The notes below the pieces were generated by a model that had not been told where the DNA came from, did no database searches, and saw nothing but the letters and a program-made list of their open reading frames with translations. DNA of 64,000 bases from Halosolutus gelatinilyticus (GTDB taxonomy: Archaea; Halobacteriota; Halobacteria; Halobacteriales; Natrialbaceae): the NCBI RefSeq assembly GCF_023028105.1, contig NZ_CP095492.1:248001-312000 (forward strand). The letters run 5' to 3'. Of this stretch, positions 38,687 to 64,000 are shown in pieces; position 1 is the first letter of the stretch, and each line of letters starts with the position of its first letter. The translations under genes and the position numbers were made by a program.

Positions 38687-38687
38687 G

Positions 38688-42943: not shown

Positions 42944-42947
42944 GGTG

Positions 42948-43733: not shown

Positions 43734-43800
43734 CGTGCTTGCTGTTACCACATAGTTTTATTTGAATGCTTTGCGATCCGGTATCCGTCGGCGTGTGGGG

Positions 43801-44814: not shown

Positions 44815-44828
44815 ATGACCTCCATTGT

Positions 44829-44851
44829 ACAACATTGATAAAAAGTGTTGT
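44829..44851 (-). promoter_or_regulatory. Inverted repeat over the TATA box of the NitT/TauT-type operon
   Basis: ACAACA and TGTTGT flank an 11-base spacer that contains TTTTTATCAA on the minus strand, the likely TATA box 21-31 nt before ATG 44814. A repressor bound here would block transcription factor access. Confidence 0.4.
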
Positions 44852-44978: not shown

Positions 44979-45005
44979 GTTGGTTCGGACATGTACGGTC
45001 GTACA

Positions 45006-47156: not shown

Positions 47157-48578
47157 TTACCGGTTTCGCGTGTGGATGGCTCGATCTCGAGCGTTTTCAG
47201 CTGCCTCCATCACCGCCTCCGAGAGCGTCGGGTGCGCGTGGATCGTCAACGCGACGTCCTCGAGGCGCGCCCCCATCTCGACGGCGAGGCCGATTTCGCC
47301 GATCAGCTCCGAGGCCTCAGGGGCGACGACTTCTCCGCCGAGGACGAACTCTGTCTCTTTGTCGGCAACGAGCCGCACAAACCCGTCCGGCTCGGACATG
47401 GTGAGCGCCCGACCGCTGGCCCGCAGCGGCATCGTTCCGACGATGGGCTCGTAACCGGCGTCTGCCGCCTCAGTTTTGGTCATCCCGACAGTCCCGATTT
47501 CGGGATCGGTGAACACGGCCCCGGGAACGGCTCGGTGATCCACGGCGACCGGTTCGCCGGCCGCGACGCCGGCGGCGACGAGCCCCTCCGCCATAGCCGC
47601 GTGAGCAAGCATCGGTTCGCCGGCTACGTCGCCGATCGCCGTGACGTGTTCGATGTCGGTCCGCATGCGGTCATCAGTCGGTAGAATGCCCTGTTCGTCG
47701 GTTTCGAGACTAATCTCGTCCAGCCTCAGCCCGTCGGTCACGGGCTCGCGGCCGACGGAGACTAACACGCGATCGGCAGCATAGACGGCCTCGTCGCCGC
47801 CGTCGATTTCGGTCACGACCTCGATTCGGTCCTCGTCTCGCCACTCGATCGCCCGCTCGCCGAAATGGAACTCGACGCCGAGCGCTTCCACCCGATCCCG
47901 GACCACTCGGGTGACGTCGTCTCCGTAATTCGGAAGGGCGTCGTCGAGCATTTCGACGACTGTAACGTCAGCGCCGGCCTTCGCGAGCGCCGTCGAAAGT
48001 TCCATCCCGATGTAGCCCGCGCCGACGACGAGGAGTTCGTCCGGGACTGTACTGGCATCCAGCGCATCGCGCGAAGACCAGATGGGGTCGTCCTCGAAGT
48101 CGAAGCCAGGGATCGTCAGCGGGCGACTTCCCGTCGCGATAACGGCGTGTTCGAACTCGACTGATTCACTTCCCTGACCCTCTCCGCCGTGGGCGATACG
48201 AACCGTCCGCTCGTCGACGAACGCCGCCGTTCCTTCGATCAGATTCACGCCGTTGGCCTCGCAGAGTGTCTCGACGCCGCCGGTCAACTGATCGACGACT
48301 TCGTCTTTCCACTCGACGAGCGTCCGCATATCGATCGTCGGATCGGCGTGGATGCCCACCTCCTCGGCGTTACGAGCCTCGTGAGCGATATCAGTCGCAG
48401 CGAGCAGCGCTTTCGATGGAATGCACCCGTAGTTGAGGCAGGTCCCACCGTACGCTTCTCTCTCGACGAGCGTCGCATCGAGTCCGTGTTGTGCGGCGCG
48501 GATCGCGGCCGTATAGCCCCCCGGACCGCCGCCGATGACCAGTACGTCCGTTCCAGTTGGTACGTCTCCAACGACCAT
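47157..48578 (-). CDS. lpdA: Dihydrolipoyl dehydrogenase (E3)
   Basis: 473 residues from ATG 48578. FAD motif VLVIGGGPGGYTAA, redox disulfide GGTCLNYGCIPSKALL, NAD motif VVGAGYIGMELS, second FAD motif TAIGDVAGEPMLAH, and the C-terminal interface IHAHPTLSEAVMEAA with the His-Glu pair. It reoxidises lipoyl groups of E2 with NAD+. Its start overlaps the E2 stop as TAATG. Confidence 0.95.
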   Translation of the reverse strand: MVVGDVPTGTDVLVIGGGPGGYTAAIRAAQHGLDATLVEREAYGGTCLNYGCIPSKALLAATDIAHEARNAEEVGIHADPTIDMRTLVEWKDEVVDQLTGGVETLCEANGVNLIEGTAAFVDERTVRIAHGGEGQGSESVEFEHAVIATGSRPLTIPGFDFEDDPIWSSRDALDASTVPDELLVVGAGYIGMELSTALAKAGADVTVVEMLDDALPNYGDDVTRVVRDRVEALGVEFHFGERAIEWRDEDRIEVVTEIDGGDEAVYAADRVLVSVGREPVTDGLRLDEISLETDEQGILPTDDRMRTDIEHVTAIGDVAGEPMLAHAAMAEGLVAAGVAAGEPVAVDHRAVPGAVFTDPEIGTVGMTKTEAADAGYEPIVGTMPLRASGRALTMSEPDGFVRLVADKETEFVLGGEVVAPEASELIGEIGLAVEMGARLEDVALTIHAHPTLSEAVMEAAENARDRAIHTRNR

Positions 48579-50149
48579 TATTCGAGCAGTAGCAGGTTGG
48601 GATCGTTCAGGTATCGTTTGACCTCGTTCGTGAACCGTCCGGCCTCGGCCCCGTCGATGATTCGGTGGTCGGCCGACATGGAGATCGGAAGCGTCGGCCG
48701 GGCGACGATCTCGCCATCTTCGGCCCACGGTCGCTCCTCCAGCGAACCAAGCGCGAGAATCGCCGCCTCGGGATAGTTAATGATCGGCGACGCGTGCTCG
48801 CCGCCGACGGCGCCGATATTGGTGATCGTAAACGTGCTTCCGCGGAGTTCTTCGGGCCTGATAGATCGCTCTCGGGCCCGTTCGGCCTTGTCGTCGATTT
48901 CGCGGGCAATCTTGAGCAGCCCCTTCCGATCGGCGTTTTCGATCACCGGGACCATGAGACCGGCGTCACTGGCGACGGCGATCCCGATGTTGTATTCGCC
49001 GTGGAGGATGATCTCTTCGTTCTCTTCGTCGAGTTCGGCATTGACTTGCGGAACCGATCTCAGCGCCGCCACTACCGCTTTGACGACGAACGGAAGATAG
49101 GTGAGCCGGATTCCACGCTCTTCCGCACGCGCTTTGAGCTGGGTGCGTACGTCGACGAGCTTCGAGACTTCGATCTCGTCGTGGTGGCTCACGTGCGGAG
49201 CCGTGTATTTTGACTCCGCCATCCGCTCGCCGATCGTTCGTCGGATGCCGGTGTAGGGAATTCGATCGCCGGGCCGGGGATCCCCGGTCGTCCGCTCTCG
49301 ACGCCGGGACCGTGTCTCGGCTGCTGCAGCGTCCGACGAGTGATCGTCCGCCTCGTAAGCACGAACGTCCTCGGGCGTCACGAACGCCTCGCCGTTTCGC
49401 CGCTCGCTAGCGGGCACGACATCGATGTCGATTCCCGTTTCGCGGGCGAGCCGCCTAGTCGCCGGCATCGCGAGCGTCCTGTCGCGGTCGGCGCGCTCAT
49501 CGTCGCCCACGGATCGGATCCTGTTATCGGTACCTGAATGGGTGTCGATTCCCGACGTTGCATCGGGAGATCCGGCCACGGTCGATTCGGGGCTCGCCCC
49601 ATCACGGGACGTCGAGGTTGTCTCCTCCGCTTCACTCGCTTCCCGCGCGGCCTCGCGGACGTCGCGTTTCGTGACCCGAGCGCCGTCGGTCCGGAGCGCC
49701 GCAAGATCGACGTCCAGTTCGCGTGCGAGTCGCCGCACGCTGGGCGGTGCGAACGCGCGCTCGTCGTGAACGCATTCGTTCTCCTCATTTGGCGACCCTG
49801 GCAGGTCTGCCGATTCGGAGCTCACGGCAGTCTCGGCGGACGCGTCGACATCTGTAGCTTCGTCACTCCCTCGTTCACTCTCGTTCGTGTCGTCGCCGGT
49901 AGCAACTTCGTCGTCGACGCTGAAGACAATGAACACTTCGTCGACGGGAACGACGTCACCCTCCTCGGCGCGCAGTTCTGCTACCTCCCCGTCGTAAGGC
50001 GATGGAATTTCGACGAGCGCCTTGTCGGTCTCGACCTCGGCGATCACCTCGTCCTCTTCTACGCGATCACCGACGTCGACGCGCCAAGTGACGAGTTCTC
50101 CTTCGGCCACGCCCTCGCCGACGTCCGGCAGTTCGAACTCCTTCCTCAT
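48578..50149 (-). CDS. Dihydrolipoamide acyltransferase (E2) with two E3-binding domains
   Basis: 523 residues from ATG 50149. Lipoyl domain at 1-85 with the lipoylated Lys in VETDKALVEIP. Two peripheral-subunit-binding domains follow: APPSVRRLARELDVDLAAL near 135-170 and AMPATRRLARETGIDIDVV near 230-265, joined by acidic Ser/Thr-rich linkers. The catalytic CAT domain starts near 295 (GIRRTIGERMAESKYTAPHV) and ends with the active-site DHRIIDG. Duplicated E3-binding domains are unusual. First gene of the minus-strand E2-E3 pair, convergent with E1. Confidence 0.92.
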   Translation of the reverse strand: MRKEFELPDVGEGVAEGELVTWRVDVGDRVEEDEVIAEVETDKALVEIPSPYDGEVAELRAEEGDVVPVDEVFIVFSVDDEVATGDDTNESERGSDEATDVDASAETAVSSESADLPGSPNEENECVHDERAFAPPSVRRLARELDVDLAALRTDGARVTKRDVREAAREASEAEETTSTSRDGASPESTVAGSPDATSGIDTHSGTDNRIRSVGDDERADRDRTLAMPATRRLARETGIDIDVVPASERRNGEAFVTPEDVRAYEADDHSSDAAAAETRSRRRERTTGDPRPGDRIPYTGIRRTIGERMAESKYTAPHVSHHDEIEVSKLVDVRTQLKARAEERGIRLTYLPFVVKAVVAALRSVPQVNAELDEENEEIILHGEYNIGIAVASDAGLMVPVIENADRKGLLKIAREIDDKAERARERSIRPEELRGSTFTITNIGAVGGEHASPIINYPEAAILALGSLEERPWAEDGEIVARPTLPISMSADHRIIDGAEAGRFTNEVKRYLNDPNLLLLE

Positions 50150-50277
50150 CGTGTGTAATAGATACACTCACACACAGAAGTATACACTCTTCGGTTAGTC
50201 GCGTCCGTCGTTACACGAGCCTTCCAGAAACGTGCGGACCAAACGACGGCGTTGATTCGATCCCGCCGGTACGTTCT

Positions 50278-51054
50278 TCACCGGGAGATCCGCCGGAGCC
50301 GCTCCTCAAGCGTCGAACGGATCGAACTAAGGTCACCGCCCATTCGAATAATCTGATAACCGTCTTCGACCGCCGCCTCGATGGCGTCCGGCTCGTTCTC
50401 GATCCTGCCCATCGGAACGCCGGCCGAACGACAAGCGGCCTCAATCTCTTCGATTTGGCCCCTCACGTCGGGATGATTCTTGTTCGTCGGATGCCCCATC
50501 TGCACTGACAGGTCGGAGGGGCCGACGAAGACGAACCCGAGGTCCGAGACGGAGAGGATTCCCTCAAGCTCGTCGATCGCGGTGGTCTTCTCGATCATCG
50601 CGCCGACGCAGACCTCGTCGTCTTCTGTCGCCACGTAGTCGTCGGTGAAACCCCAGGTCCGGGATCGACCGCTAGCCATTCCCCGCTCGCCTGGTTCACC
50701 CTCGTAGACGAAGCGGCTCGCTTCCACTGCCGCTCGGATCTCGTCGGCGGTGTCCACGCGCGGGATGAGGAGGTTCCGCACGCCCGCATCGAGCACCTTT
50801 CGGACGAGCGGCGGATCGCCCGACGGAAGTCGAACGAACAGGTCGATTCCGCCGACCTCTGCGGCGCGTGTGAGTTCCTCGAAAACCGTGCTATCGTACG
50901 GACTTGGGCCCATGTGCTCGAAGTCCAACCACACGAAGTCGATCCCTAGCTCCCCGTAGATCTCGACGATCGTCGGGGAAAACGTCGAAGCGCGCGCTCC
51001 GTAGACAACGTCTCCGTTCTCGATCCGTTCTCGCAAGCTGTTTCGCTGGTCCAT
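50278..51054 (-). CDS. HpcH/HpaI-family class II aldolase
   Basis: 258 residues. The fold signatures are VWLDFEHMGPSP, FVRLPSGDPPLVRKVLDAG (substrate Arg), AMIEKTTAIDELEGI (metal-binding Glu) and FVGPSDLSVQMG (metal-binding Asp). Such aldolases split 2-keto-3-deoxy or 4-hydroxy-2-oxo acids to pyruvate plus an aldehyde, with Mg2+ or Mn2+. 30 nt downstream of a VOC gene on the same strand. Pyruvate would feed the 2-oxoacid dehydrogenase encoded beside it. Confidence 0.88.
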   Translation of the reverse strand: MDQRNSLRERIENGDVVYGARASTFSPTIVEIYGELGIDFVWLDFEHMGPSPYDSTVFEELTRAAEVGGIDLFVRLPSGDPPLVRKVLDAGVRNLLIPRVDTADEIRAAVEASRFVYEGEPGERGMASGRSRTWGFTDDYVATEDDEVCVGAMIEKTTAIDELEGILSVSDLGFVFVGPSDLSVQMGHPTNKNHPDVRGQIEEIEAACRSAGVPMGRIENEPDAIEAAVEDGYQIIRMGGDLSSIRSTLEERLRRISR

Positions 51055-51086: not shown

Positions 51087-51449
51087 CTACTCGTCCGCGA
51101 CTACCTGGAAACGCCGTCCGTCGGGGTCTCTGAAGTTCGTGATCTGCCGGTCTGTCGCCTCCACCTCGTAGGGGCCGACGATCGAATCGACATCCTCGGC
51201 CTCGAGCTGCTCGGTCACTCCTTCAATATCGTCGACGGCGAACGCGATGTGGTTGATCCCGGGCACCTCTTCGCCTTCGACGGTGTGGATCTCGAAGATC
51301 GGACCGTCACCATCCGCCGGCTCGAGTTCTACGGATTCTCCGTGGTGTTCCGTCGTTCGAAGCTCTTCGTACCCTAACTTCTTCAAAAAATTTGTCATCT
51401 CGTCCGCGTCACTAACCTCGATTTCGATGTGATCTATCTCTCCTATCAT
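51087..51449 (-). CDS. VOC-superfamily (glyoxalase/extradiol-type) protein
   Basis: 120 residues. Two beta-alpha-beta-beta-beta modules, the first starting IDHIEIEVSDADEM and the second INHIAFAVDDIEGV, ending with NFRDPDGRRFQVV. Candidate metal ligands are His7, Glu/His around the module ends and His near 67. One-domain VOC proteins include methylmalonyl-CoA epimerases, glyoxalases and lactoylglutathione lyases. Its partner aldolase suggests carbonyl-compound handling; function otherwise unknown. Confidence 0.82.
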   Translation of the reverse strand: MIGEIDHIEIEVSDADEMTNFLKKLGYEELRTTEHHGESVELEPADGDGPIFEIHTVEGEEVPGINHIAFAVDDIEGVTEQLEAEDVDSIVGPYEVEATDRQITNFRDPDGRRFQVVADE

Positions 51450-52526: not shown

Positions 52527-52928
52527 TTACTCAACTCCGTTCGCGATAGCTCGGCTGAGTTCCTCGGGTAGCGTGCAACTCTGGTTATCTGCCGTCGAAA
52601 CGCAGACGTGCTGTTCGTGACCGGTATACGCGGTCGTTCCGTCTTCGTGAGAGGCCGTAAATTCCATTCCGAGGCTCTTGTTACCGATATCGGGTTCGAC
52701 GGAGATTCGAATGACGTCGCCGACCTCCACCGGCCGCTCAAAGTCCATGTTCATCGCTACAAGCGGCAAGTGAACATCGTGTTCGTCCGGGATATCCCAA
52801 TACGCCATGCCAATGTCGTCCATGAATTCCTCACCGGCACGGTGCATCGCGTTGACAAGTCTTGGGTAGTAGGCGATACCGTGGGGATCTACGTGTCCCC
52901 AAGCGCACTTCCACTCGTACTGGAACAT
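52527..52928 (-). CDS. 4-hydroxybenzoyl-CoA thioesterase-type hotdog protein
   Basis: 133 residues from ATG 52928. CAWGHVDPHGIAYYPRLVNA carries the catalytic Asp (HVDPxGIxYY), then the hotdog helix EEFMDDIGMAYW. It resembles the thioesterase at 21453-21854 in length and layout, and both lie near AMP-forming CoA ligases. Divergent from the ligase at 53177 across 250 nt, which suggests shared control. Likely hydrolyses an aryl- or acyl-CoA. Confidence 0.85.
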   Translation of the reverse strand: MFQYEWKCAWGHVDPHGIAYYPRLVNAMHRAGEEFMDDIGMAYWDIPDEHDVHLPLVAMNMDFERPVEVGDVIRISVEPDIGNKSLGMEFTASHEDGTTAYTGHEQHVCVSTADNQSCTLPEELSRAIANGVE

Positions 52929-53176
52929 CACCCGAGAATTGCCGCACTTTCATAAGTAACTTTCCCCGATGTGAGAGTACAGCGCGTCAACAAGCGTATC
53001 CCGGGACTGGCACTCTCCCTCACACGGCGGAATTTTTAATATTCTGCCATCGCCACTGCTAGGTAGATGGTGAGAGAAACACAAACACTGTATCTTGACC
53101 GCGCCGAAATACTTCGTGCTCACGCTACTCACATAGCAAAGCCCTCGAGCGGTAAACGAGCCAGCTGAAGTAAACT

Positions 53177-54733
53177 ATGCATCACACTTCAACACCCGAA
53201 GTTCCGGCGATAAAGGACCTCTCGAGTATCGCCGCGAAGAACAATCCCGACAAGACCGCGTTCGGCAACGGGCTCGACGGTCGAACGGTGACGTGGAACA
53301 AGTTCGATACGCAAAGCAAACAGGCCGCGAACGCCTTCAACGAACGGCTCGGTCAAGGCGATCGAGTGGCGTTCCTCTGCGAGAACTCCCTCGAGCACGC
53401 GACGCTCTGGAACGGAGCGCTCAAGGCGGGCTGTACGGTCTCGAACCTTCACACTCGTGCCTCGCCGAATACGCTCGAGTACTGCATCGATACGATTAGA
53501 CCGCGAGCGCTCGTCGTCGACGAGGAGACGTCGGGGTTCTTCGAGGAACGCGTACGGGAGAAGATCTCGACCGACCTCGATCTCGTCGCCAATGTCGGCG
53601 ACGCGCGGGCTGAGTACGAGCGATCGTTCGACTCGTTTCTCGCCGATCAATCGACCACTGAACCCGACGTACGGATCCGCGAAGACGACATCGCCGCGGT
53701 GATGTGGACGTCGGGGACGACGGGGAAGCCAAAGGGTTGGTGTCACACGAACCGGGGACTGTACTCTAGGGCGACGACGCTCGTCAGCGTCTACGACGTT
53801 AATCGGTCGGCGCGACAACCGCACGTCTTCACCCCCTCGTTTGCGGCGTGGTACTCGGTCATGCTGCCAGCGCTCGCGTCCGGCGCGACCACCTACTTCC
53901 TCGACTCGTGGGACCCGGAGACGTATCTTCGGATGATCGACGAACACGAGATGACGACTGCGCTCTTGGTTCCCACGATGTGGCGGGAGATTCTCAACCT
54001 CGATTCGTTCGACGAATATGACGTGAGTTCCCTCCGGGTGATCACGTCGGCAGGAGAGGTGCTCGACGCGACGACGCTCGAGCGGTTGCGCGAGAACATC
54101 TGTGACGTCGTCCGAAACTCGTACGCGGCAACCGAGGCATATGCCACCGTGATGACGAATGATGAACTCGAGGAGGGTCGCATCGAGAGCGTCGGCAAAC
54201 CGGTCCCCGGAGTACAGATCCGGATCGTAGACCGAGACGGGAGCTACGAGGACGTGAAACCGACCGGTGAAAGAGGCGAAATCGCCATTAAAGCCCCCGA
54301 TTGTCCGGTTTGGGCGTGGTCACGGACCGAAAAGACCGAGCGGGTCTTCGAAGACGGCTGGTGGTACTCCGGGGATGTCGGCTACCGAGACGAGGAGGGC
54401 TTCCTCTACCTCGAAGGCCGAACTGACTTCCAGATCATGTCGAAAGGGATCAAGGTGTATCCGTCCCCCATCGAGGAGCGACTGAACGCGCATCCCAGCG
54501 TAGAGGAATCCGCGGTCGTCGGCGTTGAGGACGAAAAATACGGTGAAAAGGTTACTGCATACGTCCATCCGTCGGATCCGGAGCTCACGGCGGTGGAACT
54601 AGACGAGTGGTGCCTCGAGAGCGACGAGATTGCTCGGATGGAGCGACCACGAACGTACCACTTTGTAGACGAATCGCTACCGCGGACTGCGACGGGCAAA
54701 CTCGATCGACGAAGCGCGAAGAACCTGAAGTAA
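53177..54733 (+). CDS. AMP-forming acyl/aryl-CoA ligase
   Basis: 518 residues. A3 motif WTSGTTGKPKGWCHTN, A5 NSYAATEAYATVM, A7 WWYSGDVGYRDEEGFLYLEGR and A10 LPRTATGKLDRRSA with the catalytic Lys. It is placed directly before the tandem demethylases on the same strand. Two readings are possible: an aromatic-acid CoA ligase in a methoxy-aromatic route, or a DmdB-like methylmercaptopropionate-CoA ligase in a dimethylsulfoniopropionate (DMSP) demethylation route. Sequence alone does not decide. Confidence 0.88.
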   Translation: MHHTSTPEVPAIKDLSSIAAKNNPDKTAFGNGLDGRTVTWNKFDTQSKQAANAFNERLGQGDRVAFLCENSLEHATLWNGALKAGCTVSNLHTRASPNTLEYCIDTIRPRALVVDEETSGFFEERVREKISTDLDLVANVGDARAEYERSFDSFLADQSTTEPDVRIREDDIAAVMWTSGTTGKPKGWCHTNRGLYSRATTLVSVYDVNRSARQPHVFTPSFAAWYSVMLPALASGATTYFLDSWDPETYLRMIDEHEMTTALLVPTMWREILNLDSFDEYDVSSLRVITSAGEVLDATTLERLRENICDVVRNSYAATEAYATVMTNDELEEGRIESVGKPVPGVQIRIVDRDGSYEDVKPTGERGEIAIKAPDCPVWAWSRTEKTERVFEDGWWYSGDVGYRDEEGFLYLEGRTDFQIMSKGIKVYPSPIEERLNAHPSVEESAVVGVEDEKYGEKVTAYVHPSDPELTAVELDEWCLESDEIARMERPRTYHFVDESLPRTATGKLDRRSAKNLK

Positions 54734-54840
54734 TCCGCTTGGTCACCGTTCGTCCGATCGGCCACGAGAGGTCGGTGAACCGATTCTAGCTCGGCAGCAA
54801 CGATCGCCGGGCGAGACGCGTTATTGCCATTATGCGAAAG

Positions 54841-54847
54841 TTATAAG
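54841..54847 (+). promoter_or_regulatory. TATA box for the first demethylase gene
   Basis: TTATAAG lies 36-42 nt before ATG 54883, giving a short leader and excluding the GTG at 54847 as start. Confidence 0.5.
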
Positions 54848-54882
54848 TGGTCGAAGAAAGACCCTTTAATTGCGATTTGCCA

Positions 54883-56238
54883 ATGAGTAACGAGAGAGCA
54901 TGGTCCTTTAGCGACAGTATGGAAGAAGCGGCGCAAGCCGCCGGAAGCCCCGTCGATCTGATGCGCGACCTGGGCGTCGGCAAATTCACGAAGGTTCCCG
55001 ACGAGATCACTCACTGGATCGAGGAACAGCGGTCCTGGCGGGAAACGTGTGCGTTCGCCGACCAGTCGTATCACATGACCGATCACTACGTGGAAGGACC
55101 GGACGCAGTCGACTTCTACTCGGAGTACGGCGTCAACAACTTCGAGACGTCCGAACCCGGGAAGGCCAAACAGCTCGTGGTCGCGAACCCCAACGGCTAC
55201 TTCATCGGTGACGCCATTCTCTTCCACTTGGACGACGACGAATTCCTCAGCGTCGGCGGTGCGGCCGCTCACAACTGGCTCCAGTACCACATCGAGACGG
55301 GCGACTACGACGTCTCAGGCGAAATTCAGCCCCGACCCGTCGCGACCGGCGAGGACCCGAACAATTTCCGGTTCCAGGTGCAGGGGCCGGAAGCGATCAA
55401 GATCATGGAAGAGGTGACGGACGAACCCCTGCCCGAGATCGGCTTCTTCAACTTCGAGCCGGCCTCGATCGGCGGGCACGACGTCAATCTCCTGCGCCAC
55501 GGGATGGCGGGCGAACCCGGCTTCGAGTTTTGGGGCCCGTACGAGTACGGCGATGAGGTCAAGGATATCGTCCTCGACGCTGGCGAGGAGTACGGTATCC
55601 GACATCTCGGTGCCGAGAGTTACCAGACGCCGAATAAAATCCTGGGCTGGATTCCCCTCGTCGTTCCCGCGATCTTTGAGGAGGAACTGCAGGACTATCG
55701 CGAGTGGCTGGATGTCGGCCAGGGCCTTCTCTCGATCGGGGGCAGCTTCGAGTCGGACGATATCACGGACTACTACTTCACCCCAACCGAACTCGGCTAC
55801 GGCCACATCATCAACTTCGATCAAGACTTCGTGGGGAAGGAACCCCTCGAGAAGGAAGTCGGGGATCCTGACCGCGAGAAGGTGACGCTGGTCTGGAACG
55901 ATGAGGACGTCATCGATGTCTTTGCCTCGCTGTTCAGCGAGGGCGAGACGTACAAGTTCATGGAGTTCCCGCATCCGCGTTCGTCTGCCTGCCAGTACAA
56001 TAAAGTACTGAAAGACGGCAACCACGTCGGCGTTTCGACGGAGCAGGGCTACATCTACAACCAGCGTGAGTTGCTCTCGCTCGCGGTCGTGGACACGGAA
56101 TACAGTGACCCGGGTACCGAAGTCTCGCTCATCTGGGGAGAACCCGAGGACAACACCAATCCGAAGGTCGAACGCCACGCCCAAACGGAGATCCGTGCGA
56201 CCGTCGCCCCCTCTCCGTACAGCGAGGACAACCGATAG
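54883..56238 (+). CDS. GcvT/LigM-like tetrahydrofolate-dependent demethylase 1
   Basis: 451 residues from ATG 54883. The aminomethyltransferase fold is shown by an N-terminal ADQSYHMTDHYVEGPDAVDF segment, the central RFQVQGPEAIKIMEEVTDE block, LRHGMAGEPGFEFWGPYE and a C-terminal barrel (GKEPLEKEV...KVTLVWNDEDV). Length is near that of vanillate/3-O-methylgallate demethylase LigM (about 470) and above DMSP demethylase DmdA (about 370). Both families move a methyl group to tetrahydrofolate. A 159-base stretch at 55378-55536 is almost identical to the next gene. Own promoter; likely coregulated with the upstream ligase. Confidence 0.85.
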   Translation: MSNERAWSFSDSMEEAAQAAGSPVDLMRDLGVGKFTKVPDEITHWIEEQRSWRETCAFADQSYHMTDHYVEGPDAVDFYSEYGVNNFETSEPGKAKQLVVANPNGYFIGDAILFHLDDDEFLSVGGAAAHNWLQYHIETGDYDVSGEIQPRPVATGEDPNNFRFQVQGPEAIKIMEEVTDEPLPEIGFFNFEPASIGGHDVNLLRHGMAGEPGFEFWGPYEYGDEVKDIVLDAGEEYGIRHLGAESYQTPNKILGWIPLVVPAIFEEELQDYREWLDVGQGLLSIGGSFESDDITDYYFTPTELGYGHIINFDQDFVGKEPLEKEVGDPDREKVTLVWNDEDVIDVFASLFSEGETYKFMEFPHPRSSACQYNKVLKDGNHVGVSTEQGYIYNQRELLSLAVVDTEYSDPGTEVSLIWGEPEDNTNPKVERHAQTEIRATVAPSPYSEDNR

Positions 56239-56470
56239 ACAATGGGACTCGGCCCGGCAGCATAGTATGAAGCAGCAGTTTCCCCGGTACTCGACTCGTA
56301 CGCCACCGTTTCGCGGGCCAGATATCGAAGTCACAACCGGCGATGCGGATCATCGCCGTTCGTAACGAGCGACATAACGCAAGGTGTCTGCTCCGACTCG
56401 TGATATAATCCGCTCACGGCGAGCGCTTCGTTTTCGTCCTTGATCCGTGAAGAATCGTTCCGAGAGGAAC

Positions 56471-56480
56471 GCTTATTTGG
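56471..56480 (+). promoter_or_regulatory. TATA-like box for the second demethylase gene
   Basis: GCTTATTTGG lies 33-42 nt before ATG 56513. Confidence 0.35.
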
Positions 56481-56512
56481 AGGGGTGGCAATGTCTCGCA
56501 TGTAGTAAGATC

Positions 56513-57862
56513 ATGCACGAGCAAAGCCTAGAGGACGTGGTACGGGACGCAGAGTCCCCTGTCGATCTGCTCAGAACGCTGGAGGGAGGCGCGTTCGGAT
56601 TCCCGGTCGTTTCCGACGAGTATACCCACTGGATCGAGGAACAACGAGCGTGGAAGGAGAGTTGCGCGTTCGCAGACCAATCACACCACATGGTCGATAT
56701 GTGGGTCACGGGACCGGACGTGTTCGAGGCTTTCACCGACTACGCCGTCAATGACTTCGATAACTTCACAGTGGGACAAGCCAAACAGTTGGTCGTTTGT
56801 AACCCAGACGGATACTTCATTGGCGACGGAATCCTGCTTCGTCTCGACGAGGACGAACTCGCTTTCGTCGGTCCACCGCAAGCGCCCAACTGGCTCCAGT
56901 TCAACATCGAAGCTGGCGACTACGACGTGACCGTCGAACGCGACGAGACGTCGGGCGTTCGAGACGGCCCGCCGACGAACTTCCGATACCAAGTGCAGGG
57001 GCCGGAAGCGATCAAGATCATGGAAGAGGTGACGGACGAACCCCTGCCCGAGATCGGCTTCTTCAACTTCGAGTCGGCCTCGATCGGCGGGCACGACGTC
57101 GATCTCCTGCGCCACGGGATGGCGGGCGAACCCGGCTTCGAGTTTTGGGGCGACTGGAAGGACAGCGACGAGGTCAGAGAGACAGTACTCGAAGCCGGCG
57201 AGGAGTACGGTATCCGTCGGTTGGGATCGAAGAGCTACGGCAGTTCGTCGGTCATCTCTGGCTGGGTCGGGATGCCGCTGGCCGCTATCTACGACGGCGG
57301 AGCGATGCGGGAGTATCGGGAGTGGTTGAGCGCCCGCAGTCTCGAGGCCAACTACTCGATCGCCGGGAGCTTCGAGTCGGATGACATCACGGACTACTAC
57401 CTCACGCCGGTCGAACTCGGCTACGGACGACTCATCGATTTCGATCGCAACTTCGTCGGGCGCGAGGCGCTCGAGGAAGAGGTTGAGGACCCCAGTCGCC
57501 GACTCGTAACCCTCGAGTGGAACGCCGAGGACGTGATCGATGTCTTTGGTTCCCTGTTCACGGAGGGTTCCACGGAGAAATTCTTGGATTTCCCGGTTCC
57601 GTGGCGGTCGGCCGCACACTACGACGCGGTACTGAACGGGACAGATACCGTTGGCGTGTCGATGTGGGCTGCGTATACGTACAACGAACGGGCAATGCTC
57701 TCGTTGGCCGTCGTCGATACCGATCTCAGCGAACCCGGTACCGAGCTCACGCTCGTCTGGGGCGAGCCGGATGATGCGTCGAGTACGCACATCGAGCGTC
57801 ACGAACGGACGGAAATCAGCGTCACCGTCGCACCGGTTCCCTACACCGATGATCGACGGTGA
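56513..57862 (+). CDS. GcvT/LigM-like tetrahydrofolate-dependent demethylase 2
   Basis: 449 residues from ATG 56513; upstream codons from 56447 are Cys- and Arg-rich and lie in the promoter. Same domain order as demethylase 1: ADQSHHMVDMWVTGPDVFEA, then the shared VQGPEAIKIMEEVTDEPLPE block, LRHGMAGEPGFEFWG and a C-terminal barrel ending in TLVWGEPDDAS. Outside the shared block the two proteins are clearly divergent, pointing to different substrates or positions (for example different methoxy groups). A 2-hydroxyacid dehydrogenase gene follows. Confidence 0.85.
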   Translation: MHEQSLEDVVRDAESPVDLLRTLEGGAFGFPVVSDEYTHWIEEQRAWKESCAFADQSHHMVDMWVTGPDVFEAFTDYAVNDFDNFTVGQAKQLVVCNPDGYFIGDGILLRLDEDELAFVGPPQAPNWLQFNIEAGDYDVTVERDETSGVRDGPPTNFRYQVQGPEAIKIMEEVTDEPLPEIGFFNFESASIGGHDVDLLRHGMAGEPGFEFWGDWKDSDEVRETVLEAGEEYGIRRLGSKSYGSSSVISGWVGMPLAAIYDGGAMREYREWLSARSLEANYSIAGSFESDDITDYYLTPVELGYGRLIDFDRNFVGREALEEEVEDPSRRLVTLEWNAEDVIDVFGSLFTEGSTEKFLDFPVPWRSAAHYDAVLNGTDTVGVSMWAAYTYNERAMLSLAVVDTDLSEPGTELTLVWGEPDDASSTHIERHERTEISVTVAPVPYTDDRR

Positions 57863-57936
57863 TCTCCGGCTCCTGTCTCCCGTTTCGTCGGCGAAATGGC
57901 AGTAGCCTCAAGTAGTTGTAAAACGATCGTCGACTC

Positions 57937-58893
57937 GTGACTCGAGCTATCATCGACCAAGACATTACACCGACATCGCGGCTGACGGAGCAGCTACCGG
58001 ACGCATGGAACGTGATCGAAGGAATCGATATCGAACAGCCAGCACTGGGGGCAACGATCGAGACGGCCGACATCGCATTCGTTACCTCTCGCGTCCCCCT
58101 CTCTCGTAAGGTGATCCAGAGCGCCCCGGAGCTGGATGTGATCGCGAAGCTGGGAACCGGCATCGATTCGATCGATATCGAAGCGGCCGCCGAGTGTGGC
58201 GTCACGGTTACTCATACGCCGGGACACAACGCGCTCTCGGTGGCGGAACACACCGTCGGATTGACCCTCGCAACGCTGCGCCGACTGACGGAAGCGCGCC
58301 GTCTCATCGAATGCGATGCGTGGCGCGACGAGTACTCGCTCGGCTCTCGGCTCTTCGGGTCGACCATCGGTATCGTCGGATTCGGCAATGTCGGAAAGCG
58401 AGTCGGGACCCTCCTCTCGGGTTTCGACGTCGATCTCCTCGCTCACGATCCCTACGTGCATGATATCGATAGCGAACTGGTAGGTGCGAGCATGGTCTCG
58501 CTCGAAGATCTCCTCGAACAGAGCGACGTCGTCATGCTGACGACGGAACTGACCGACGAGACTTGTGGGATGATCGGTAAGAGGGAACTCGATTGCATGA
58601 AACCGTCCGCCGTGCTCATCAATACGGCTCGCGGACCCGTCGTCCGTAACGGTGCGCTTGTAGACGCACTCCGGTCGGGTTCGATCGCAGGGGCCGGTTT
58701 GGATGTCTTTGCCGAGGAACCGGTTGACTCGACCGCCGAGTGGCTGGAGTTCGACAACGTCGTTGCGACGCCACACATCTCTGCGATGACGCTCGAGAGT
58801 CGACGGGAGGGGATCGATCGGCTTGCGACGAACACAAAGCGACTCCTCGCAGGAAGGCCGGTCAACGAGCGCTACGTCGCGACGTCGCCTTGA
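57937..58893 (+). CDS. D-isomer-specific 2-hydroxyacid dehydrogenase
   Basis: 318 residues with GTG start at 57937. Catalytic/NAD features: LGTGIDSIDIEAAAECGV, Rossmann motif GIVGFGNVGKRVG with a downstream Asp (AHDPY), Arg in NTARGPVVRNGAL, Glu in DVFAEEPV and His in VATPHISAMT. The family (phosphoglycerate, glyoxylate, hydroxypyruvate dehydrogenases) reduces 2-oxo acids with NAD(P)H. Downstream of the demethylases on the same strand. It may process a C2/C3 acid or serine-derived C1 donor, which is speculative. Confidence 0.9.
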   Translation: MTRAIIDQDITPTSRLTEQLPDAWNVIEGIDIEQPALGATIETADIAFVTSRVPLSRKVIQSAPELDVIAKLGTGIDSIDIEAAAECGVTVTHTPGHNALSVAEHTVGLTLATLRRLTEARRLIECDAWRDEYSLGSRLFGSTIGIVGFGNVGKRVGTLLSGFDVDLLAHDPYVHDIDSELVGASMVSLEDLLEQSDVVMLTTELTDETCGMIGKRELDCMKPSAVLINTARGPVVRNGALVDALRSGSIAGAGLDVFAEEPVDSTAEWLEFDNVVATPHISAMTLESRREGIDRLATNTKRLLAGRPVNERYVATSP

Positions 58894-59001
58894 CCGACTA
58901 CGAGCCTCGTTCGCTCACCGACGCCGAATTCGAGAACGGGCGCTCGGCGCTCGCACACGAAACCGCGGTGGTGCAGCCGAAAAATAGTTTCCCACATGAT
59001 C

Positions 59002-59967
59002 TCACTTGCTCTCATCCCAGAATCGACCCACGATCCCCTCGGGAAAGAGGAACACGAACGCGACGAAGAGAATCCCAAGGACGAGTAGGTAACCCTCTGC
59101 CCAGAGACTACCGAGACTGTTCTCTAGGAACGTCAGGGCGAATGCCGCGAAGAAGGGGCCGGCGAAGGTGCCGGCGCCCCCTACGACGACCCAGATAAGG
59201 ACCTCGCCGGTGAGCGCAAACGACATGATAGACGGCGAGGCGATACCGATAGACGCGACGTACACGGCGCCCGCGATGGACGAAACGACGGCGGAGAGGA
59301 TCCACACTATCAGTTTCTCCCGGTCGGTGTTGTAGCCGAGATAGCGCATCCGAAGTTCGTTCTGCCGTGTCGCATGGAGGACGTCGCCGTAGTCTGAACG
59401 AAGCAAGAGATATAGTCCCCCCGCGACGACGGCGACCACTAAGAGCGTGAAGTAGTAGTACGCGACCAAGTCGCTCAGGTCGACGCCAAAGACGGTCGGC
59501 GGCGAAATGAACGCGAGACCGTTCGATCCACCGGTGAACGACGTCGTGACGTAGACGAAATCGTACGCGATAACGCCGAACGCTAACGTGAACAGTGCGA
59601 AGTAGACCATGCTGATCCGCTGTTTGATCGGGGTGTATCCGATGAGAAGTGCGGTGACAGCCGCGACGACGATCGCGACGGGGAATCCGAGCCAGAACGA
59701 GCCGCCGTAGTCGACGACTATTTTCGCGAGGGAGTACCCCCCGATTCCGAAGAATGCCGCCGGAGCGAGGGTGAGGAGGCCCGTATAGCCCAAGGCGATG
59801 TCGACCGAGATGGCGAACAAGCCGAAGAGTAGCGCTTGTGTGGCGATGCTGACATCGTTTGGACTGACGATCGGGAGGACCAGTAATCCGAAGGTAGCGA
59901 TCGGTAGCACCAACCGACGAGGATCGTGTCCGAGGTACCCCCGTACGCGCTCCACAGGAGCACTCAT
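59002..59967 (-). CDS. livM: Liv-type ABC transporter permease (LivM-like), second system
   Basis: 321 residues. About nine hydrophobic segments; ALGYTGLLTLAPAAFFGIGGYSLAKI and the coupling segment LRMRYLGYNTDREKLIVW are LivM-like. ATGA overlap with LivH. It belongs to a second full importer, all on one strand, and unlike the split first copy. Confidence 0.88.
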   Translation of the reverse strand: MSAPVERVRGYLGHDPRRLVLPIATFGLLVLPIVSPNDVSIATQALLFGLFAISVDIALGYTGLLTLAPAAFFGIGGYSLAKIVVDYGGSFWLGFPVAIVVAAVTALLIGYTPIKQRISMVYFALFTLAFGVIAYDFVYVTTSFTGGSNGLAFISPPTVFGVDLSDLVAYYYFTLLVVAVVAGGLYLLLRSDYGDVLHATRQNELRMRYLGYNTDREKLIVWILSAVVSSIAGAVYVASIGIASPSIMSFALTGEVLIWVVVGGAGTFAGPFFAAFALTFLENSLGSLWAEGYLLVLGILFVAFVFLFPEGIVGRFWDESK

Positions 59968-60854
59968 TCGAATACCTCCGGTTTTCCAAAGAACCCGTGT
60001 GGTTTGAACAGGATGAAAATCATGGCGCTAATGAATATCAGTATTTGGACGTAGGTTTGCTCGAGGAACAACCATCCAAACGCGTTGATTTGTCCAACGA
60101 TCATGCTCACGAAGAACGACCCTTTAAAACTCCCCATCCCGCCGACGATAATGACGAGGAAGGCCATGGTCATGTACTCCATCCCGATTCCGGGCGACAC
60201 CGACGTAACTGGTGCCGTGAGCCCGCCCGCGAGCGCGGCCAGCGCCGTTCCGAGGACGAAGGTTAACGTGTACACCTTCGTCGAATCAACACCGAGGATC
60301 TCAGCCGTGGACGGCTTGTTCGCTGTCGCGTGCACCTCCAACCCGAGCCGCGTCCGCGTGAGTAATGCTCCGATGAGCAACGCGGTAGTCGCACCGATGA
60401 AGATCACGAAGATCCGATAACGGGGGTAACTGACGCCGAATACCTCTACCCCGCCGGAGAGTGGCGCCGAGATGCTGTACGATTGATCTCCGAACCGGTA
60501 CGATATCAGCTCCTCGATGACCAATCCTATTCCGAACGTGCCGAGAAACCCGAGGAGCGGTTTCTCGTAGACGCGATGGATAATCGTTCGCTCGAGAGCC
60601 AGACCTACCGCCGCGATGAGCAGCATCGCCACAATCAGGCTCACCCAGAAGCTACCGGTTCGCTGGAGGATGACCATCGTCATGTATCCCCCTAACGCGA
60701 GCATCCCGCCGTGTGCGAAGTTGATTAGCCCGACCAGTCCGAAGATCAGCGTGAGACCGCTAGCGACGAGGAAGAGGATCATTCCCTCGCTGAGACCGTT
60801 CAGAAAGTACGTGATGAATTGGTCCGGGGAGATGAACTGAACGTAGTACATCAT
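59964..60854 (-). CDS. livH: Liv-type ABC transporter permease (LivH-like), second system
   Basis: 296 residues. FLNGLSEGMILFLVASGLTL at the start, LINFAHGGMLALGGYMTM and the coupling region HATANKPSTAEILGVDSTKVY are LivH features. An immediate second ATG at 60851 is equally possible. A 250-nt gap separates it from LivF. Confidence 0.88.
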   Translation of the reverse strand: MMYYVQFISPDQFITYFLNGLSEGMILFLVASGLTLIFGLVGLINFAHGGMLALGGYMTMVILQRTGSFWVSLIVAMLLIAAVGLALERTIIHRVYEKPLLGFLGTFGIGLVIEELISYRFGDQSYSISAPLSGGVEVFGVSYPRYRIFVIFIGATTALLIGALLTRTRLGLEVHATANKPSTAEILGVDSTKVYTLTFVLGTALAALAGGLTAPVTSVSPGIGMEYMTMAFLVIIVGGMGSFKGSFFVSMIVGQINAFGWLFLEQTYVQILIFISAMIFILFKPHGFFGKPEVFE

Positions 60855-61102
60855 GTCCCCCCATCGGGTATCCCTCTCGTAATCATCCGTCTCGTCCGAG
60901 AAGACATCTCCCTTTCAATCGACCTGCGGGTAGATCTCATTACACTAGTTAGCACGGTTCTATCCCCTATTATATTTTCTGTGATCGAACTGACGCCGTC
61001 GGTTCGACCGACCGTTTACTGACGGTCGGGACGATTATCGCGCGGAGCAACGAATAAGCAGGCCGGTTTGCGACGACAGTTCGCTTCGGCGAAGCGGGTC
61101 GA

Positions 61103-61813
61103 TCAAATGGTCAGATACTCCTCGTGGAGCGTTTCGTCGCTGAGTCGGTCTGCTGTCCCTTCAACGACGATCTCTCCACCCTCGATGATGTATCCGCGCT
61201 CGATGAGCGGCAGCGTCTTCGTGATGTTTTGCTCGACCAGCAATACCGCTTGGTCCCGAGCAGCCAACTCTTCGAGCGCGCTGACGACGTCGTCGACGAT
61301 GATCGGAGCTAGCCCCTCAGTCGGTTCGTCGAGGAGTAACAGATCCGGTTCCGTGACGAGCGCCCGTCCGATAGCAAGCATCTGTTGCTCGCCGCCGCTG
61401 AGCGTCCCCCCTCGCTGTCCGGCTCGTTCTTCCAATCGCTCGAACCGATCGTACACGGTCCGTATCCGCTCCGCTTTCACCTCGTCCGAGAGCCCTTTCG
61501 GCGTCGCGACCTCGAGATTTTCGCGAACGGAAAGGGCCGGATAGATCTCCCGATCCTCGGGGACGTAGGCGATGTCTTGGCGGATGATGTCGTGAGTGGG
61601 CCAGTCCGTGATATCGGTTCCGCGAAATCGAATCGTCCCCGCTTTCCTGTCGATCCGGTTGACGATGCTGTCCAACAGCGTCGTCTTGCCCATTCCGTTC
61701 CGACCGAAGATTCCGATCACGCCGTTCTTCTCGACGTCGATATCGACGTCGAACAGGACTTGACTCTCGCCGTAGTACGCCGAGAGATCGCGAACGGTCA
61801 GGAGGTCACTCAC
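61103..61813 (-). CDS. livF: Liv-type ABC transporter ATPase (LivF-like), second system
   Basis: 236 residues with GTG start at 61813, overlapping the LivG end by 8 nt. Walker A GRNGMGKTT, signature LSGGEQQMLAIGRAL, Walker B LLLLDEPTEGL. EDREIYPALSVRENLEVAT is the LivF-type Q-loop region. A partner of LivG and both permeases below. Confidence 0.9.
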   Translation of the reverse strand: MSDLLTVRDLSAYYGESQVLFDVDIDVEKNGVIGIFGRNGMGKTTLLDSIVNRIDRKAGTIRFRGTDITDWPTHDIIRQDIAYVPEDREIYPALSVRENLEVATPKGLSDEVKAERIRTVYDRFERLEERAGQRGGTLSGGEQQMLAIGRALVTEPDLLLLDEPTEGLAPIIVDDVVSALEELAARDQAVLLVEQNITKTLPLIERGYIIEGGEIVVEGTADRLSDETLHEEYLTI

Positions 61814-62612
61814 CTAGATACACCTCCTTGACGCGAGCGTTCGTGACGATCTCGTCCGGGGTGCCCGTCGCGAGGGTCTCCCCGTCGTGGAGGACGGTGA
61901 TCCGATCGGCGAGGCGGCGGACGAGTTCGACATCGTGTTCGATGATCAGTATCGTGTACTCGTCTCGGATCTCCCTGATGATTTCCATCAGTTCCTCCGA
62001 CTCGGCGGTATTGAGTCCCGCTGCGGGCTCGTCGAACAGAATCACGTCCGCGTCGAGTCCGAGGACGAGACCGATGTCCAGAAATCGCTTCTCCCCGTGC
62101 GAGAGGTCTTTCGCGACGTCGTCGAGTCGATCCGTCAAGTGAACCCGTTCCGCTATCTCTTCGATGCGGTCAGTGTGATCGGTACTCCGATCGAAGACGC
62201 TCGTTATCGTCCTCGTAGGATCGCGCACGGCCAAATGAAAGTGCTTCCTGACGGTCATCTCGGGAAAGTACTGGACGACCTGAAAGGAGCGGCCGATACC
62301 GCGTCGTCCAATCTCAGACGGCGACAGACCGGCGATGTCTTCTCCTTTGAATTCGATCGTCCCGTCAGTCGGTTGCAACTTGCCCGTGATGAGGTTGACG
62401 AGCGTTGTTTTTCCGGCGCCGTTGGGACCGATGAGCCCGTGAATCTCCTGCGACTCGAGCGCGAAATTCACGTCGTTGACGGCGAGTAACGAGTCGAACT
62501 CTTTCGTGAGACCGCTCGTCTCTAATACCGTGTTTTGACTCTGGTTCGGACCGGCCGCCGCCTCGGTCGTTCCGCCTGGGTTCGAATCGAACGACGATGT
62601 CACGCGATCCAT
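61806..62612 (-). CDS. livG: Liv-type ABC transporter ATPase (LivG-like), second system
   Basis: 268 residues from ATG 62612. Walker A GPNGAGKTT, signature LSHGEKRFLDIGLVLG, Walker B VILFDEPAAGL, H-loop IIEHDVELV. The first 33 residues are a Ser/Gly-rich extension. The reading frame is open through the start into a folD fragment (62640-62861), so a 351-residue FolD-LivG chimera could be read from ATG 62861. Confidence 0.87.
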   Translation of the reverse strand: MDRVTSSFDSNPGGTTEAAAGPNQSQNTVLETSGLTKEFDSLLAVNDVNFALESQEIHGLIGPNGAGKTTLVNLITGKLQPTDGTIEFKGEDIAGLSPSEIGRRGIGRSFQVVQYFPEMTVRKHFHLAVRDPTRTITSVFDRSTDHTDRIEEIAERVHLTDRLDDVAKDLSHGEKRFLDIGLVLGLDADVILFDEPAAGLNTAESEELMEIIREIRDEYTILIIEHDVELVRRLADRITVLHDGETLATGTPDEIVTNARVKEVYLGE

Positions 62613-62639
62613 GGTGTCGTATATCGGTACGTCTCTCCT

Positions 62640-62861
62640 AGGCGGGTTAATGTTTTCGGGAGTATCGATACGCGTACACTCGATTCCGACGTCAGCACAG
62701 GCCTGCTGTTTTATCGAGACGTACGTCTCGCTCGCGTCGTCGTTCGTGAGAACGGTCGCTAGCCCCGGCATTACGCCGACGCCTCCGAGCGTCTCGATGC
62801 TCGCTGTCAGTTGCCGTTTGATGCGATCTCTGATATCGTCGCCGTCAATGACGTGGATCAT
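62640..62861 (-). pseudogene. folD: Truncated folD (methylenetetrahydrofolate dehydrogenase/cyclohydrolase), N-terminal part
   Basis: From ATG 62861, MIHVIDGDDIRDRIKRQL, then GLATVLTNDDASETYVSIKQ and CADVGIECTRIDTPEN match the first 70 residues of FolD, including the catalytic Tyr and Lys of YVSIKQ. The remaining roughly 220 residues (NADP domain) are absent and the frame continues without a stop into livG. FolD converts methylene- to formyl-tetrahydrofolate, so its presence beside folate-dependent demethylases is meaningful even as a remnant. Confidence 0.75.
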
Positions 62862-63133
62862 GGCTGAATACTCTCTCGGTTGTCCGGCCGAATGCGGCAT
62901 CGAGACTCGCGAGGGACTGGCCGAACCGCTATCCCGGTCATCACTGCCCGTCCGCCGAGCCGAACTACTCCATCTCGCTGCTCGTGAGCGATCGGATATC
63001 AGCGAACAGAGAACATTTCGATTCGCTGTGCCGTGATCGTGCGGGAAATTCGGATAGTAGTACTGAGGACGATTCCCTCGATCGGGTCGGCGCCGCGCCG
63101 ACGAGACCGAACGACCGTTCGCAGCGTGTCGAG

Positions 63134-64000
63134 TCAACAACTGTTCTCCGGGATAACGTTGTTGTACTCCTCCAGCGATAGGAACTCCGTCCCGTCTCTC
63201 GCTGCGCCGGTGAAGTTCAGTTCGATCTGTCCGTCGCCCTCTCGGAACATCGCAGGTCCGAAGATCGAATCCCACTCGAGACCACTGAGCTCGTCGGTCA
63301 GATCGTCAGCATCCGTCGATCCGGTCTGCTCGACCGCGGTCGCGACGGCCCGGACCGGTTCGAACCCGCTGCCGCAGGAGGTGTTCGGGAGGAGGTCCGA
63401 GTCAGACGGATACAGGTCCTGGAAGGCCTGATTGATCTCCGAGTCGCTCGTCGGATCGTAAAACGTCGTTCCGAACCAGCCGCTGGCCGTTTCGCCGACG
63501 CTAGCCTGCGTGAGTTGGTCGACCGGCTTCCCCGAGTTGAACATCAGTATCTTCTCCTCGGCGAGGCCGAAGTCGGCCGCTTGATTGATCAGCCGGGTTG
63601 CCATGTCCGGGGTTAGCACGCCCGTCACGACGTCCGCATCGCTGTCCTGAATCTCGGCGAGATAGGACGACAGGTCCTGTGTGCCGATCGGCACGAGCGT
63701 CGAGCCGGTGACTTCCCCTCCCTGGGCGGCCATCTCTTCCTCGACCAACTCCTGGTTGTTCTGCCCGAGCGCGTAATCGGGCGAGACGAAGTGCACTTCG
63801 TCCGGATTGAAGTCCCGATCGATGTGGCCGGGAAGGTCGTAGATGAACTCGACGCCGACTGGTGCCGTGTGTCGGTTGCTCGGCCAGATAAAAAACGAGT
63901 ACTCGGTACAGTTATCCCCCGTGCGAGCGTCGACGCTGGACGCCTGCGTCGGGAGGATCGGGACCTGCGCTTGGTCGTGGATGTACGGGAGGACCGACTG
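63134..64000 (-). CDS. Liv-type ABC transporter substrate-binding protein, second system (cut by window end)
   Basis: 289 codons visible; the N-terminus lies beyond base 64000. The type I binding fold is seen in HFVSPDYALGQNNQELVEEE, DVVTGVLTPDMATRLINQ and GFEPVRAVATAVEQTG. An apparent ATG at 63796 is internal because the frame continues coherently to the window edge (TEYSFFIWPSNRH). It supplies ligand to the LivHMFG genes downstream. The position next to demethylases suggests a methoxylated acid or methylated sulfur compound as ligand (inference). Confidence 0.87.
   Translation of the reverse strand, partial: QSVLPYIHDQAQVPILPTQASSVDARTGDNCTEYSFFIWPSNRHTAPVGVEFIYDLPGHIDRDFNPDEVHFVSPDYALGQNNQELVEEEMAAQGGEVTGSTLVPIGTQDLSSYLAEIQDSDADVVTGVLTPDMATRLINQAADFGLAEEKILMFNSGKPVDQLTQASVGETASGWFGTTFYDPTSDSEINQAFQDLYPSDSDLLPNTSCGSGFEPVRAVATAVEQTGSTDADDLTDELSGLEWDSIFGPAMFREGDGQIELNFTGAARDGTEFLSLEEYNNVIPENSC

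Follow-up and report, generated by a model that had tools for sequence, protein, structure and literature searches.

A gene cluster for probable tetrahydrofolate-dependent aryl-O-demethylation and ring cleavage in the haloarchaeon Halosolutus gelatinilyticus

We examined a 64,000-nucleotide stretch of the Halosolutus gelatinilyticus genome (contig NZ_CP095492.1, positions 248,001 to 312,000; RefSeq assembly GCF_023028105.1), hereafter the window, and, past it, the next 20 kb (C2:308001-328000, locus L046), where C2 is the 562 kb host contig and a C2 coordinate equals the window coordinate plus 248000. A gene cluster of ~35 kb begins at ~38.7-41.4 kb in the window and ends at C2:324184, ~12 kb past the window edge; base composition revealed no clean island boundary. 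The cluster contains two tandem GcvT/LigM-like genes, paralogue A (54847-56238, plus strand) and paralogue B (56447-57862, plus strand), the GTG start of B being over-extended and the true start lying probably near residue 23. Judged from sequence, the cluster most probably encodes tetrahydrofolate (THF)-dependent aryl-O-demethylation and ring cleavage of methoxylated aromatic acids, such as those of plants or lignin, with demethylases of a kind hitherto known from bacteria. The first-pass annotation had placed a demethylation module at 52527-64000, with the two LigM-like enzymes, a CoA ligase, a 4HBT thioesterase, a 2-hydroxyacid dehydrogenase and a Liv-type importer; all of these are in place as intact open reading frames (ORFs) with the expected Pfam domains, but the extent was too narrow.

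Paralogues A and B are assigned to the LigM/DesA aryl-O-demethylase family as full-length members, and not to GcvT, DmdA or the amine oxidases. The NCBIfam DesA (syringate demethylase) model matched A at 3.2e-143 (478 bits) and B at 2.4e-154 (514 bits), and the LigM (vanillate demethylase) model matched them at 1.7e-124 (416 bits) and 6.8e-143 (477 bits), all below the equivalog cut-offs of 580 for LigM (NF047885) and 800 for DesA (NF047633), so that A and B are family members and not proven LigM or DesA equivalents. In the PDB, LigM structures were the top matches over the full length (A 1.2e-104, B 5.8e-113), and the next best reached only ~1e-19. In a tree of 72 rows, both proteins group inside the branch of the LigM family and separately from the GcvT, DmdA-like and FAD-linked relatives, with an SH-aLRT of 100 computed without bootstrap and with long branches flagged by the program; the grouping with LigM thus agrees with the expectation of the first-pass annotation. 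A and B belong to different haloarchaeal lineages, one of 15 rows and one of 6, and the bacterial rows near LigM of Sphingobium lignivorans SYK-6 make up a branch by themselves (95). For B, the predicted fold ranked all LigM chains first, and the DmdA structure far lower; the AlphaFold model is of moderate confidence (pLDDT 61) and this match adds little beyond the sequence.

These comparisons bear on two other readings of the gene pair. One-carbon housekeeping by glycine-cleavage T-proteins or amine-oxidizing relatives would fit the PF01571 domain and the RefSeq label of the relatives, 'aminomethyltransferase family protein', but it is extremely improbable: GcvT models scored merely 1e-14 to 1e-24 (best 1.9e-21 for A and 4.1e-24 for B; TIGR00528 52.0/62.4 bits against a cut-off of 235.85), LigM-specific residues are present, the DesA model matched 0/14 control genomes (Haloferax volcanii among them), other GcvT-like genes lie separately elsewhere in the genome, and no gcvH or gcvP was seen nearby. 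Catabolism of dimethylsulfoniopropionate (DMSP), with DmdA-like demethylases and a DmdB-like CoA ligase, had been offered by the first-pass annotation beside methoxy-aromatic catabolism. The GcvT-type fold is common to both families and a CoA ligase is nearby, but the DmdA model NF009133 reached only 2.5e-11 and 6.3e-12 (43.1 and 45.1 bits against a cut-off of 410), the DmdA structure ranked far below LigM, the DmdA-like row stands outside the LigM family branch, and no DmdC/DmdD-like genes were seen in the cluster. We give the DMSP reading hardly any credence; the methoxy-aromatic half of the proposal is the one supported, and the likening of the CoA ligase to DmdB finds no support.

The active-site residues (LigM numbering, 5x1i minus 3) point to the same family. 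Tyr247 is catalytic in LigM, and Gln57, His60 and Trp256 are further catalytic or pocket residues. All four are kept in A, B and both haloarchaeal lineages, and His60 and Tyr247 are absent from the GcvT, DmdA-like and amine-oxidase rows. The pterin-binding Glu215 of the folate domain is a Glu in every alignment row, including A and B, as the folate-binding reading of the first-pass annotation had anticipated. A LigM structure paper cited in PMC7797058 carries the phrase 'catalytic tyrosine-dependent mechanism' in its title. Between the two genes, a tract of ~120-150 bp (55378-55534 versus 56993-57149) is 98% identical, with a longest exact run of 81 bp, and the rest is ~65% identical; this tract looks like a recent gene conversion.

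Genes for CoA chemistry and transport flank the pair. The gene for the 4HBT-type acyl-CoA thioesterase (52527-52931, minus strand; PF13279 4e-13) diverges, in most haloarchaeal clusters, from a CoA ligase or LigM-like gene. The AMP-forming acyl/aryl-CoA ligase (53177-54733, plus strand; PF00501 7e-70) has an anthranilate-CoA ligase as its closest PDB match (6.9e-46), with feruloyl- and benzoate-CoA ligases also matched, and its gene adjoins the A-type LigM gene in most haloarchaeal clusters. The D-isomer 2-hydroxyacid dehydrogenase (57937-58893, plus strand; PF02826 1.8e-54) is present in nearly all haloarchaeal clusters of LigM type. The Liv importer follows on the minus strand, with permeases LivM (59002-59967) and LivH (59964-60854) (PF02653 1.5e-37 and 3.5e-36), ATPases LivF (61103-61813) and LivG (61806-62612, start inferred) (PF00005 4e-33 and 1.6e-29), and a substrate-binding protein running from 63134 across the window edge to C2:312408 (PF13458 6e-35). 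The folD fragment reported by the first-pass annotation is real: a 5' relic of ~70 codons upstream of livG (62643-62861, minus strand) matches PF00763 at 1.9e-11 over profile positions 1-69 of 115 and weakly matches the complete FolD past the window. The ORF 61806-63275, read as one gene, is an artefact that fuses livG with this relic.

The folate and one-carbon genes lie mostly past the window, where the complete folD and the folate-methyl oxidation genes, named in the first-pass annotation as something to look for, were found: FolD (C2:314714-315796), PabA (C2:315799-316440), PabB (C2:316437-318296) and a FolC-FolP fusion (C2:318101-320515) on the minus strand, an IclR regulator (C2:320662-321423) and a methylenetetrahydrofolate reductase (MTHFR; C2:322145-323005) on the plus strand, and PurU (C2:323219-324184, minus strand). 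A second FolC-FolP (58% identical) and a second FolD (67% identical) are encoded on contig C1, so the cluster copies are extra, and the cluster MTHFR is the only one of the genome. Its best PDB match is 7xg9 (2.6e-31), which we take to be the LigM-coupled MTHFR of SYK-6, and the next solved MTHFR scored 7.9e-12. By sequence similarity, the cluster MTHFR is closer to the SYK-6 MTHFR than to reductive MTHFRs; this subfamily is described as working in reverse together with LigM (PMC12585457, PMC13001107). The formate dehydrogenase noted by the first-pass annotation at 33-38 kb is genuine (TIGR01591, 825.6 bits against a cut-off of 666) and is accompanied by a NuoF-like subunit. It lies near the cluster here, and none was seen in other haloarchaeal clusters.

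Ring cleavage is represented by a catechol-2,3-dioxygenase/HpaD-like extradiol dioxygenase (C2:313120-314190, L046:5120-6190, minus strand), just past the window. The metal triad His155, His214 and Glu267 is kept in all cluster copies of this enzyme, as are His248 and Tyr257, and Asn157 and Arg243 are replaced in all of them by Gln and Asp. The closest PDB entry, 9wgj, bears the label catechol 1,2-dioxygenase and apparently has no His200 either. Next to the dioxygenase gene is one for a small VOC protein (C2:314205-314570, minus strand), 85% identical to a one-domain VOC protein of the window (51087-51449, minus strand), whose gene is kept beside an aldolase gene in haloarchaeal clusters. This HpcH/HpaI-family pyruvate aldolase (50278-51054, minus strand) matched PF03328 at 1e-29, the HpaI model at 2.3e-36, below its cut-off, and PDB entries 2vws (2e-38) and 7et8 (1.7e-29). 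The homoprotocatechuate pathway, considered for the HpaD/HpaI/HpaE-like genes, was rejected, the HpaD substrate residues being lost.

Toward the left end, an SSADH/HpaE-like aldehyde dehydrogenase (38667-40178, plus strand; NCBIfam SSADH 2.6e-114 and HpaE 2.6e-107, both below cut-off) has orthologues adjoining the HpaI-like aldolase gene in Halostagnicola larsenii (78%) and genome G256 (76%) and is a probable cluster member. So is a second ABC importer of four ORFs (41376-44835, minus strand), with permeases at 41376-42176 and 42143-42943, an ATPase at 42948-43751 and a substrate-binding protein at 43801-44835; orthologues of the last occur in H. larsenii (64%), beside the same E1-E3 genes, and at ~50% in the clusters of G126, G219 and Halobellus limi. 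The E1-E3 genes encode a pyruvate-dehydrogenase-like E1 alpha (44991-46163) and beta (46167-47132) on the plus strand (TIGR03181 5.8e-122, just below cut-off; NF006667), a set also found in the H. larsenii plasmid cluster, and the 2-oxoacid dehydrogenase E3 (47157-48728, start probably over-extended) and E2 (48578-50167), ORFs on the minus strand with annotated orthologues in the H. larsenii cluster.

We surveyed 391 Halobacteria genomes from 86 genera and found LigM-like genes (E <= 1e-30) in 22 genomes and 11 genera, most frequently in genus g32 (Halobellus, according to the named records), with up to 4 copies; two further genomes from the genus of the window have none. The gene set recurs, reshuffled, in H. 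larsenii (plasmid), Halostagnicola sp., H. limi (plasmid), Halarchaeum, an unclassified Halobacteriales archaeon and others. The same genes thus stand together in new order across several haloarchaeal families, which argues that their grouping is not due to chance. On a second H. limi plasmid (L076), the set is reduced to a LigM-like gene with the genes for the dioxygenase, the aldolase and the VOC protein, which argues that demethylation is tied to ring cleavage. With a threshold of E <= 1e-125, placed at a natural break in the scores after these had been seen, the cluster dioxygenase has close relatives in 15/22 LigM-bearing genomes versus 0/369 others (Fisher 4e-22) and, by genus, in 7/11 with LigM versus 0/75 (6e-8), counts that are corrected for kinship only in part. 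MTHFR is present in 21 of the 22 LigM-bearing genomes versus 81 of the 369 others; those 81 make MTHFR alone an unspecific marker, and it was discarded as such. Five clusters have both the Liv importer and paralogue B, and three have neither; in Halarchaeum, the importer is present and B absent. The second H. limi plasmid also carries, near the LigM-like gene, five consecutive genes annotated as ester cyclases and a gene of the cobalamin-independent methionine synthase II family.

Several observations weigh against demethylation and ring cleavage of methoxylated aromatic acids as we read it. Besides the sub-cut-off scores of A and B and the partial kinship correction, LigM Arg122, presumably the contact for the substrate carboxylate, is a Pro in every B row and a Gly or Ala (one Ser) in the A-lineage rows; the window proteins have Gly (A) and Pro (B), and most bacterial rows keep Arg. 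The acid-base His200 of the dioxygenase is replaced by Ile in all cluster copies examined and is present in two other haloarchaeal dioxygenase paralogues. Neither a LigB-type nor an intradiol dioxygenase was found in the genome, in a search that did not include gentisate dioxygenase, and no gene in the cluster was identified for the early steps of the lower pathway; the genome encodes many FAH-family hydratases/hydrolases that could act in the lower pathway. Some other haloarchaeal LigM lineages adjoin sugar-type transporters, so that some relatives may have a non-aromatic substrate.

The loss of Arg122 bears on substrate specificity and not on the catalytic core. Together with the missing LigB-type and intradiol dioxygenases and the cluster dioxygenase without its acid-base His, it means that the substrate need not be vanillate. 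The first-pass annotation had proposed looking for a protocatechuate route; its usual dioxygenases are those absent from the genome, and the Sphingobium-style conversion of vanillate to protocatechuate is therefore not a simple answer. That A and B are plain equivalents of SYK-6 LigM and DesA, demethylating free vanillate, 3-O-methylgallate and syringate ahead of a protocatechuate/gallate route, is consistent with DesA and LigM being the highest-scoring families, with the kept catalytic residues and with there being two paralogues, as for syringate. It nevertheless appears unlikely in view of the scores, the loss of Arg122 in both proteins, the lack of a matching ring-cleavage enzyme and the placement of A and B in separate haloarchaeal branches of the tree. 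The lost Arg122 and the conserved, adjoining CoA ligase and thioesterase make a CoA-ester substrate possible. In such a variant, which we consider unlikely, the CoA ligase would activate the acid, the Arg122-less LigM-family enzymes would demethylate it, the 4HBT thioesterase would release it, and the His200-less VOC dioxygenase would cleave the ring with unusual regiochemistry; if true, it would be the first described archaeal folate-dependent methoxyaromatic catabolism, with its own folate supply.

A non-aromatic methyl ether, such as an O-methylated sugar acid or polyol, has also to be weighed, with the aldolase and the 2-hydroxyacid dehydrogenase acting on sugar-acid intermediates. The best PDB match of the aldolase is a 2-keto-3-deoxy sugar acid aldolase, sugar-type ABC genes lie beside the other LigM lineages, and a Rhizobium relative is near inositol and glycerophosphodiester genes. 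We regard this substrate as quite unlikely, since a catechol-dioxygenase-like enzyme with an intact metal triad is tightly linked, the regulators are of the IclR type, the CoA ligase is of aryl type, and LigM-type chemistry requires a good leaving group, e.g., phenolate. Moreover, the characterized LigM-type enzymes that PMC9404685, PMC5547118 and PMC7797058 name act on aryl ethers. Another haloarchaeal LigM lineage, at loci L053, L054 and L061, has an ABC importer of the sugar type and a HAD phosphatase as neighbors, and its substrate may be a different methyl ether.

For the demethylation of a methoxylated aromatic acid with subsequent ring cleavage, we infer the reactions, their order and the substrate from the gene identities, the family and catalytic residues of the demethylases and the recurrent co-occurrence. 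An ABC importer would take up the substrate, and A and B would transfer its aryl-O-methyl group to THF, forming 5-methyl-THF; the two paralogues may serve two methoxy groups or two substrates, much as DesA and LigM share syringate. The cluster MTHFR, working oxidatively, would convert 5-methyl-THF to 5,10-methylene-THF, FolD would carry this on to 10-formyl-THF, and PurU would release formate and regenerate THF; the formate could be oxidized to CO2 by the formate dehydrogenase. PabA, PabB and the extra FolC-FolP would boost the THF supply for catabolism. The freed catechol would be opened by the VOC-type extradiol dioxygenase, the HpaI-type aldolase would release pyruvate, and the pyruvate-dehydrogenase-like complex would yield acetyl-CoA, the CoA ligase and the thioesterase presumably acting on the acid group at some stage.

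Comparisons with known systems place the cluster close to bacterial ones. It resembles the LigM/DesA and reverse MTHFR system of SYK-6 (PMC12585457, PMC13001107) in its full-length homologues, catalytic residues, related MTHFR, FolD and PurU and, by inference, in the transfer of the methyl group to THF. Unlike that system, the haloarchaeal cluster is archaeal, has Arg122 replaced and lacks a LigAB/DesB-type dioxygenase, and it adds PabA, PabB, the FolC-FolP fusion, the CoA ligase, the thioesterase and the VOC-type dioxygenase. The hydroxycinnamate region SpG8-1b of Agrobacterium fabrum (Atu1420 and Atu1418; PMC7797058) likewise combines a THF-dependent vanillate O-demethylase, an MTHFR and a CoA ligase, the last heading the pathway. 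However, its protocatechuate enters pca genes, whereas the haloarchaeal cluster shows no enoyl-CoA hydratase or thiolase and the genome has no intradiol enzymes. MtoABCD of Methermicoccus and Archaeoglobus (PMC8630106, PMC8359953) shares the archaeal use of methoxylated aromatics but employs a corrinoid protein and methanopterin without ring cleavage; in the haloarchaea, which are presumed to be aerobes, a single enzyme would transfer the methyl group to THF and the ring would probably be cleaved. The homoprotocatechuate (Hpa) meta-cleavage pathway has a comparable set of HpaD/C23O-like dioxygenase, HpaI-like aldolase and HpaE/SSADH-like aldehyde dehydrogenase, but in the cluster all are below equivalog cut-offs, HpaD Asn157, His200 and Arg243 are replaced, and no HpaF/G/H was seen.

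Folate synthesis embedded with O-demethylation also occurs on a plasmid of Rhodococcus opacus DSM 44186 (NZ_CP082159), where a FolC-like Mur ligase, PabB, a LigM-like gene, MTHFR, PurU and FolD form one run. In contrast to the haloarchaeal cluster, the Rhodococcus opacus relatives adjoin LigAB-type ring-cleavage genes, and the folate genes are not a FolC-FolP fusion. Those of the haloarchaeal cluster are of haloarchaeal type, the fusion resembling the C1 copy, which suggests that haloarchaea and Rhodococcus each recruited a folate supply of their own; such apparently separate recruitment suggests in turn that folate supply limits growth of this kind. Among other bacteria, Sphingobium relatives adjoin MTHFR, PurU and FolD, Rhizobium and Bosea relatives adjoin MTHFR, and LigAB- and gallate-pathway-like genes are apparent, in sequences read by eye, at Rhodobacteraceae loci. 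Clusters of LigM, MTHFR, FolD and PurU are thus already known from bacteria, and the term 'undescribed system' of the first-pass annotation was too strong; what differs is the archaeal host and the built-in folate synthesis. The literature searched gave no report of an archaeal LigM, and the only archaeal demethoxylation that it describes relies on corrinoid enzymes. Bacterial lignin conversion has folate-dependent aryl demethylation as one of its important steps. A salt-adapted version in several haloarchaeal families, partly plasmid-borne, would mean that haloarchaea help to turn over methoxylated aromatics in salterns and saline soils, and it would be a source of enzymes for high salt.

Three further observations concern neighboring and distant genes. 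Window positions 7482-32084 hold acyl-CoA synthetases, acetate-CoA-ligase-like genes, a Liv importer, an FAD monooxygenase (15015-16256), a thioesterase, a thiolase-like protein and IclR genes, which suggests a separate CoA-linked catabolic region. The Rhizobium plasmid pRLG204 (L075) carries a LigM-like gene and an MTHFR gene near glycerophosphodiester and inositol phosphatase genes. On the mobilizable 8.5 kb Psychrobacter plasmid pA3H8 (L098), a distant LigM-like gene (31%) has regulatory genes and one for SMR efflux as neighbors.

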